Assembly (NCBI RefSeq): GCF_000169455.1
Contig: NZ_AAYC01000002.1
Coordinates: forward strand, 124,001 to 188,000
Source: Roseobacter sp. SK209-2-6
GTDB lineage: Bacteria > Pseudomonadota > Alphaproteobacteria > Rhodobacterales > Rhodobacteraceae
Reading direction: 5' to 3'
Length of the DNA: 64,000 bases
In this document: positions 39,614-44,840 of the stretch, piece by piece
Layout of the letters: each line of letters starts with the position of its first letter
Numbering within the stretch: the first letter of the stretch is position 1
Notes under the pieces: model-generated
Databases searched by the model: none
Told to the model about the DNA's origin: nothing
Seen by the model: the letters and a program-made list of their open reading frames with translations, nothing else
Translations under genes and position numbers: made by a program

Positions 39614-44246
<4,633 letters not shown>

Positions 44247-44276: not shown

Positions 44277-44311
44277 GTTCTAAAAAGTTCGCAAATGTTC
44301 TCAAAAAGTTC
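44277..44311 (+). promoter_or_regulatory. LexA (SOS) box array behind recG
   Basis: Four GTTC motifs stand in line at 44277, 44287, 44297 and 44308. The last two form GTTC-N7-GTTC (44297-44311), the alphaproteobacterial LexA consensus; the others are spaced 6 apart. It lies 93 bases before the ATG of a 40-aa peptide gene. The match is read directly; LexA binding is inferred. Confidence 0.65.
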
Positions 44312-44403
44312 TTTACAGAATGAGCGTAAAATGAGAACAAAGAGGCAACAAGACCGGCACAGACCGGACGGAGCAAATCGACAGAGAGAAGAGAGGCCGA
44401 GAC

Positions 44404-44526
44404 ATGATGACCCAGCTGAAAACTGTTCTTCAAAACGCCCAGGCAACCCTGCTGCAGGATGCTATCGGTGCGGCTTCGCTAATGGTCATGCTGGTCGCCG
44501 CGCTACACCTGCCTGGACTGCTCTAG
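44404..44526 (+). CDS. 40-aa peptide gene under a LexA box
   Basis: ATG-ATG start at 44404 with GAGAGG about 8 bases upstream, 40 residues to a TAG. The N-terminal half is polar and amphipathic (MTQLKTVLQNAQATLLQDA), the C-terminal half hydrophobic (MVMLVAALHLPGLL). It is too short for routine ORF calling. No family is recognised; the size, charge and hydrophobic tail are reminiscent of small membrane-targeted SOS peptides, but that is only a comparison. Similar short peptides in this position occur in other roseobacters to my recollection. Confidence 0.6.
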   Translation: MMTQLKTVLQNAQATLLQDAIGAASLMVMLVAALHLPGLL

Positions 44527-44840
44527 GGTCGCGCTTCCCGAGATTCACCAACTGCCTGACGTCTTTGAAGCAGCGGAGCTTGCATCGCATCCCGACTTCC
44601 TGATGGGGGATGTCCCGCCTGTACACATCCCTACCGGCTGCATCATCTGCCGGAAAGCCCACTGGTCCCCGAACAAAGACGCCTCACCTGCCGCCACCAT
44701 CTGCCCGGATGTGTGGCGGCTTTTTCTTTCTTAACAGTTTCTTGCACGAAGAAGTGAAACTGAAAGTTTCACTGATATGGAAAGGGAAACGATCCCAAAT
44801 TGAAGCAAATGGGAGTATTTGGAACAGAGTAGATACCGTG
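44527..44840 (+). other. Gap with a second open frame and a terminator
   Basis: 314 bases. A frame open from 44483 to 44734, offset +1 from the 40-aa peptide, reads protein-like (LPEIHQLPDVFEAAELASHP and later GCIICRKAHWS) but has no usable start upstream. The terminator at 44690-44732 lies in it. I do not call a gene. Confidence 0.35.
44690..44732 (+). terminator. Terminator after the LexA-controlled peptide gene
   Basis: An 8-bp stem of GCCGCCAC and GTGGCGGC (44690-44697, 44713-44720), a 15-base loop and the tail TTTTTCTTTCTT. Confidence 0.85.

Follow-up and report, generated by a model that had tools for sequence, protein, structure and literature searches.

Most genera of the Rhodobacteraceae possess a conserved locus behind recG, which to judge by comparison of genomes combines predicted SOS control sites, a short peptide ORF and a structured RNA. 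In the window, by which we mean the whole 64-kb stretch of DNA analysed here, the order is recG, GTTC repeats, a 40-amino-acid ORF, a structured 3' RNA and a terminator (Table 1). The original prediction was that of a LexA-type micro-locus with a real short gene behind recG; this is supported, with the frame kept in relatives and recG upstream in 138 of 144 of them. Its observation is confirmed, and was understated: the 3' half (44550-44720, structured RNA plus terminator) and the family-wide spread had been missed, and the operator array is richer than the description given then.

Table 1. Features of the locus and their positions in the window
Feature	Position	Strand	Basis or description
recG	42156-44246	+	RecG domains in Pfam; conserved upstream neighbour of the peptide gene
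Operator array	44277-44311	+	GTTC at 44277, 44287, 44297 and 44308; the last two form the exact box 44297-44311
Probable promoter	44312-44338	+	TTTACA 44312-44317, ATGAGAAC 44331-44338; most conserved outside the box in a 142-locus alignment
Second, degenerate operator GAAC-N7-CAAC	44335-44349	+	GAAC-N7-[GC]AAC in 127/144 relatives
40-aa single-span membrane peptide (predicted)	44404-44526, including stop codon	+	Relatives, coding signature, uncharged residues 20-40
Conserved structured 3' RNA (predicted)	44550-44689	+	Closing helix around hairpins with C-rich loops; R1/R2 matches, covariation in relatives
Intrinsic terminator	44690-44725	+	Stem 44690-44720, then T run; -23.2 kcal/mol, z -6.43

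The peptide gene and its place behind recG

The ATG at 44404 and its 40-residue ORF are present in the window as proposed, and relatives of the peptide were found in 144 of 198 genomes of the family, one per genus. The nearest named peptides in a 68-row alignment are those of Pseudophaeobacter flagellatus (79%), Leisingera (78%) and an uncultured Roseobacter (77%). A profile of 30 relatives, run on 244 genomes of the order (a sample that shares some members with the family set), gave matches in 218, and a class-wide profile search of 289 genomes gave good matches only in four genomes of the same family, with two further matches that were weak, partial and inside long open frames. No convincing homologue was found outside the family in 285 genomes of the class, and a wider profile taken to E 1 returned many weak partial matches. 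Conservation of the frame, on which the original prediction had been made to depend, is borne out by the relatives in 144/198 genera and by a pN below pS in all 28 pairs compared (at least 70% identity, among 40-residue members). Codon position 3 is the least informative (0.42 versus 0.76 and 1.19), and the ORF is, on this comparative evidence, almost certainly coding.

The protein has a length of exactly 40 residues in 114 of the 144 relatives, with start codons as chosen by us, and among these 114 members D19 and G22 are invariant, L34 and P37 occur in 98% and 92%, and residues 20-40 are uncharged in all except one (113/114). Its N-terminal half is amphipathic with a net charge of about +1 and its C-terminal span is uncharged, which makes an N-in orientation likely. 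Searches of Pfam, NCBIfam and PHROGs with 93 members produced weak scattered matches only (best E 0.0029), and a search with the peptide against PDB sequences led nowhere. Spread by mobile elements was considered and rejected, as tblastn with the window peptide gave no hit among either plasmid records (72,556) or phage records (50,697), sets that may omit records close to the window's own genome.

In 138 of the 144 peptide loci, the C-terminus of recG lies on the same strand 59-318 nt upstream. Contig ends truncate two of the other six loci; the remaining four retain 1 kb of upstream sequence without recG, so that the neighbourhood differs in these four. The original prediction had also proposed looking for the peptide beside recG in other Rhodobacterales, where it is indeed present. 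A scan of species genomes with an extended promoter pattern returned at least 118 stretches, 80 of them readable; recG is found upstream on the same strand in all 80 (within 160 nt in 77), and the peptide in 79, the remaining locus (L404) being cut by its end. These loci bear either Rhodobacterales names or the labels of Alphaproteobacteria or Pseudomonadota MAGs, and the set overlaps that of the 144 loci (11/80 identical over 250 nt). On the other side of recG, at 39910-42159 of the window, a large ORF resembling an NAD-dependent DNA ligase (read by eye) overlaps the recG start by 4 nt, and the apparent SOS gene therefore closes a repair cluster.

Genomes that lack a peptide match are mostly not empty at this locus. 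We sought recG in 31 such genomes of the family and read the region behind it in 28, the other three having no clear recG locus. A divergent short membrane ORF, recognized by eye and with a hydrophobicity filter, follows recG in 21 of the 28; 18 of these ORFs are accompanied by an exact GTTC-N7-GTTC, two by a reversed box only and one by none. The other seven recG loci show nothing behind recG, and one of them (L279) holds recG only in part. In one genus (g24), four of the six loci read (L265, L266, L270, L271) carry a 31-residue version with the membrane half only, one a longer ORF and one nothing; the 31-residue peptide together with its box appears as a minimal form of the family. In the 26 best-matching recG loci read outside the family, no membrane ORF was found after a box. 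In one of them (L325) an ORF that passes the filter starts ahead of the box, and another (L319) has a reversed box but no such ORF.

Control sites upstream of the peptide

The GTTC-N7-GTTC box of the original prediction is present and is the sole exact copy in the window, and the further GTTC motifs said to precede it are found at two positions (44277 and 44287). Taken alone, this LexA box is no better than chance: shuffled versions of the window hold 1.59 boxes on average and at least one box in 75 of 100 cases, and in the whole genome the box is no commoner than a reversed control pattern (60+57 versus 85+78). Comparison across genera makes the locus secure. An exact box lies at most 160 nt upstream of the peptide in 142 of the 144 loci (one per genus), as against two boxes in 303,457 positions elsewhere in the same loci, which excludes a chance box. 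GTTC-N6-GTTC is likewise conserved (120/144 loci), other GTTC spacings occurring in at most 6/144, and the second operator has the form GAAC-N7-GAAC in 9/144 relatives. L119 and L177, which lack a box, have a degenerate or lost promoter. L119 has the look of a decaying copy: in addition to lacking the box, it has a peptide frame that continues into the RNA for 75 residues, and the RNA is still matched by the model described below.

TTTACA and ATGAGAAC are presumably the -35 and -10 elements, a reading based on the alphaproteobacterial consensus; a simple sigma-70 scan of the window returned no promoter site at the locus. In 20 genomes of relatives, the same box (as GAAC-N7-GAAC, on the other strand) was found at recA in 19/19 and at lexA in 20/20 loci read, a split recA (G137) having been left out. 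GTTC-N7-GTTC lies in the promoter and has a form shared with recA and lexA of the same genomes, as befits in sequence a member of the LexA regulon, and control of the locus by LexA is very likely. By eye, most of the recA promoters of relatives (L206-L224) also have, some 22 nt ahead of the exact GAAC-N7-GAAC, a degenerate box resembling GTTC-N7-GATC, a two-operator layout that mirrors the arrangement at the micro-locus. GTTCN7GTTC is described as the LexA motif of Caulobacter, where about 97% of SOS promoters are reported to have a single box (PMC12700426).

The structured 3' RNA

The terminator that had been proposed at 44690 is real (z -6.43), but does not simply end the peptide gene, as had been supposed: about 160 nt lie between the two and contain a structured RNA. 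A terminator follows the peptide in 199 of 221 loci (the 144 plus 77 named ones, overlapping sets), at a median of 140 nt past the stop codon; a simple terminator scan of the window missed the 44690-44720 stem. Single folds of 15 chosen UTRs mostly follow one plan, in which a long closing helix encloses hairpins, and 44 UTRs (one in four), folded with the terminator excluded, gave an average z of -2.34. RNAalifold on a MAFFT seed returned the closing helix, with double changes in 7 of 23 predicted pairs; on 40 divergent UTRs it found the terminator only. In a model-free helix test, the 5' arm paired with its own 3' arm at -22.6 kcal/mol and with foreign 3' arms at -15.6 kcal/mol (sd 0.2 over 10 permutations), and in 168 of 178 RNAs the own arm outdid the median foreign one.

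Two covariance models were built, R1 from a 15-sequence seed and R2 from the 71 peptide loci that R1 had matched. R1 matches 71 of 100 peptide loci (including nine seed members) and 24 of the other 44, as well as 57 of the 80 named promoter-pattern loci (six seed members), one of the 28 recG loci that lack a peptide match and none of the 26 non-family recG loci. R2 matches 115 of the 144 peptide loci, namely 87/100 (71 of them used in its construction) and 28/44 held-out ones, and misses 29; it matches two of the 28 recG loci that lack a peptide match and none of 97 controls (26 non-family recG loci and 71 control loci from the same genomes). The matches of R2, counted in 114 of the 115 with the window copy excluded, are all on the peptide strand and start at a median of 4.5 nt past the stop codon, with L119, whose frame enters the RNA, and L014, at 108 nt, as outliers.

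Covariation supports the model in two alignments, both fitted to it. In the first (A4, 71 rows), 91.4% of cells pair versus 67.3% when shuffled, with 368 versus 89.8 double changes and a covariation score of 0.486 versus 0.144, versions slid out of register reaching at most 0.085. In the second (A5), whose 30 rows are absent from A4 and were not used for the model, the values are 90.4% versus 64.7%, 160 versus 41.4 and 0.524 versus 0.149, with at most 0.079 when slid. That the 3' region forms an RNA structure is, from these comparisons, hardly in doubt. The copy in the window is a divergent one, in which the closing helix is partly kept and a single fold lacks the common plan. It scores low with R1 (21.2 bits, E 0.0007, the E-values of both models being rough owing to short calibrations) and reaches 43.8 bits with R2, of which it is itself a building sequence; positions 44527-44676 taken alone, a cut that removes part of the 3' arm, fold no better than shuffles (z +0.62). 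Searches of Rfam gave no match above the gathering score of any family, only sub-threshold ones. A second coding frame after the peptide was considered and rejected; the one 67-aa frame tried has no Pfam match, and relatives conserve RNA structure there.

The first conserved word of the RNA, held by 183 of 196 UTRs, begins at a median of 8 nt past the stop codon (at most 15 nt in 135), too close for the RNA to have a separate promoter outside the ORF. Towards the ORF end, third codon positions show only slightly higher conservation than in mid-ORF. The RNA is thus most likely the 3' UTR of an apparently LexA-controlled message, a single transcript being suggested by the spacing. A coding ORF with an adjacent conserved RNA, apparently on one transcript by the same spacing, has the make-up of a dual-function transcript.

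In the stretch between stop codon and terminator, CTGTCCC occurs in 157 and CTGCCTG in 138 of 197 UTRs, and CUGUCCC or CUGCCU is found 2.83 times per RNA (183 UTRs) versus 0.14 in shuffles. The C residues of these motifs are predicted to be unpaired with a mean probability of 0.84, compared with 0.42 for other C residues, the former being higher in 174 of 176 cases. Such C-rich loops recall the sRNAs with UCCC seeds, for example RsaE and LhrC. In none of the 144 loci does the leader or the ORF contain GGGACAG, the complement of the loops. Words complementary to the loops are at chance level near lexA starts (3/20 versus 3.2 expected from shuffles) and mildly raised near recA starts (L206-L224; 12/19 versus 5.0 expected), a weak excess among related sequences. 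The 3' RNA is probably regulatory; an action in trans, for which the case lies in its loops, has in our estimate slightly less than an even chance.

Proposed function and relation to known systems

The best explanation, in our view, is a transcript repressed by LexA that would give rise to two products, the peptide and a structured RNA of about 140 nt. DNA damage would lead to LexA cleavage and induction of the transcript; the peptide would insert N-in into the inner membrane and pause division via the septal synthase group FtsW/FtsI/FtsN, in the fashion of SidA, and the RNA, as 3' UTR or as a released fragment, would have a regulatory role, either by base-pairing to G-rich ribosome-binding regions or by binding a protein via its repeated loops. 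Elsewhere, LexA-controlled single-span peptides are reported to stop division at FtsW/FtsI/FtsN (PMC4211646, PMC13396833), and by this analogy the proposal that our peptide arrests division is about evenly balanced between true and false. An even chance is also what we give to the combined reading of a dual-output transcript with a SidA-like peptide. A bolder version, in which the locus would be an SOS checkpoint in most Rhodobacteraceae, the peptide stopping division and the 3' RNA reprogramming translation or titrating a protein in trans, is tentative and rather unlikely to hold in full. Both readings are held low because the window RNA folds poorly alone and because two functional steps were inferred independently.

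The RNA might instead act purely in cis, as a structured 3' UTR that shields the message or aids termination without partners in trans, with the peptide doing the work. It starts right past the stop codon and ends in a strong terminator, and elsewhere HRC-28-1 has been put forward as a 3'-UTR structure that ends in a terminator (PMC8632094), yet repeated unpaired C-rich motifs, at 2.83 per RNA, would be superfluous for a mere protective fold; we consider this alternative a serious one, though somewhat below an even chance. Further down in probability, and on balance improbable, is a peptide that acts as a TisB/DinQ-like membrane toxin of the SOS response and slows energy metabolism and not septation, the 3' RNA serving solely to adjust the stability, folding or translation of the mRNA itself. 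The peptide is short and single-span with SOS-type control, and dinQ of E. coli, as described, encodes an SOS single-transmembrane peptide accompanied by regulatory RNAs (PMC3567139), but the near fixation of D19, G22, L34 and P37 across genera suggests a protein partner over simple membrane damage, and the RNA forms part of the same message in sense orientation, with GGGACAG missing from leader and ORF in 144/144 loci. A mere coincidence of box, ORF and terminator behind recG has a negligible probability: the box alone would be expected 1.59 times in the window, but the reading is refuted by conservation across 144 genera, by the codon signature and by covariation.

If the bolder version holds, the checkpoint message would represent a new family of dual-function RNA under SOS control. 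In the literature searched, no description was found of how division is halted after DNA damage in the Rhodobacteraceae, a large marine, photosynthetic group, and the locus offers a concrete candidate that has a fixed place and is easily deleted. It also adds a covariation-supported RNA that lacks an Rfam match and is joined to a peptide under apparent LexA control, and the two outputs are separable by simple mutants of operator, start codon and loops. No paper on this gene or RNA was found by title or start of the abstract, and an earlier mention is possible in Kuchinski 2016, Erill 2004 or two papers on CcaF1 and cuckoo RNAs; recG does not appear in the main text of a LexA study in Dinoroseobacter or of a study of other Rhodobacterales RNA motifs (PMC8632094).

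The closest known system is SidA of Caulobacter crescentus, described as a 29-aa inhibitor of division in the inner membrane that is under LexA control and interacts with FtsW; our locus shares with it the form of the LexA box, a very short single-span peptide and its occurrence in Alphaproteobacteria (PMC4211646). YneA (Bacillus), SosA (Staphylococcus) and ChiZ (Mycobacterium), SOS- or damage-induced membrane division inhibitors, are likewise presented as single-span peptides that act late in division, proposedly at FtsW, and YneA and ChiZ carry a LysM domain, in contrast to the Rhodobacteraceae peptide as compared via family libraries (PMC13396833). In its sequence the locus has the features of a LexA-controlled, very short single-span peptide gene of the SidA type. 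The Rhodobacteraceae peptide differs from SidA in its 40 residues, its fixed D19 and G22, its usually amphipathic N-terminal half and its position behind recG; it is also followed by a structured RNA, and the comparison with SidA is made at the peptide level only. For a direct comparison we used a genome (G775) that we take to be Caulobacter-like, its flagellin being 98% identical to the Caulobacter sequence, and read 92 of the 97 boxes listed. Four ORFs in three loci pass the membrane filter; one of them (L501) gives 29 residues from its second start behind a GAAC-N7-GAAC box and is the SidA candidate, picked by length, box and membrane span and not by a database name. Against the peptide family it scores 1.3 bits, with 63 of 500 shuffles scoring at least as high, and an hhalign probability of 0.2%. 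The original prediction had refrained from claiming homology to SidA, which accords with the lack of a detectable sequence relation between this candidate and the family; the peptide may work like SidA, and membership in a SidA family is not supported.

As regards the pairing of peptide and RNA, SgrS/SgrT and CcaF1-CcsR of Rhodobacter sphaeroides also combine a short ORF with a regulatory RNA on one transcript, and the CcsR RNAs have C-rich loops like those of the Rhodobacteraceae 3' RNA. Neither of these two systems is known to be SOS-controlled, and the 3' RNA described here differs from them in having no Rfam match. TisB of E. coli is an SOS-controlled single-span peptide with a regulatory RNA at its locus, the antisense RNA IstR. 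DinQ of E. coli is reported to be similar to our locus in being an SOS-controlled single-span peptide with regulatory RNAs at the locus, but its RNAs agrA and agrB are antisense (PMC3567139), whereas the Rhodobacteraceae RNA appears to be the sense 3' part of the same message.
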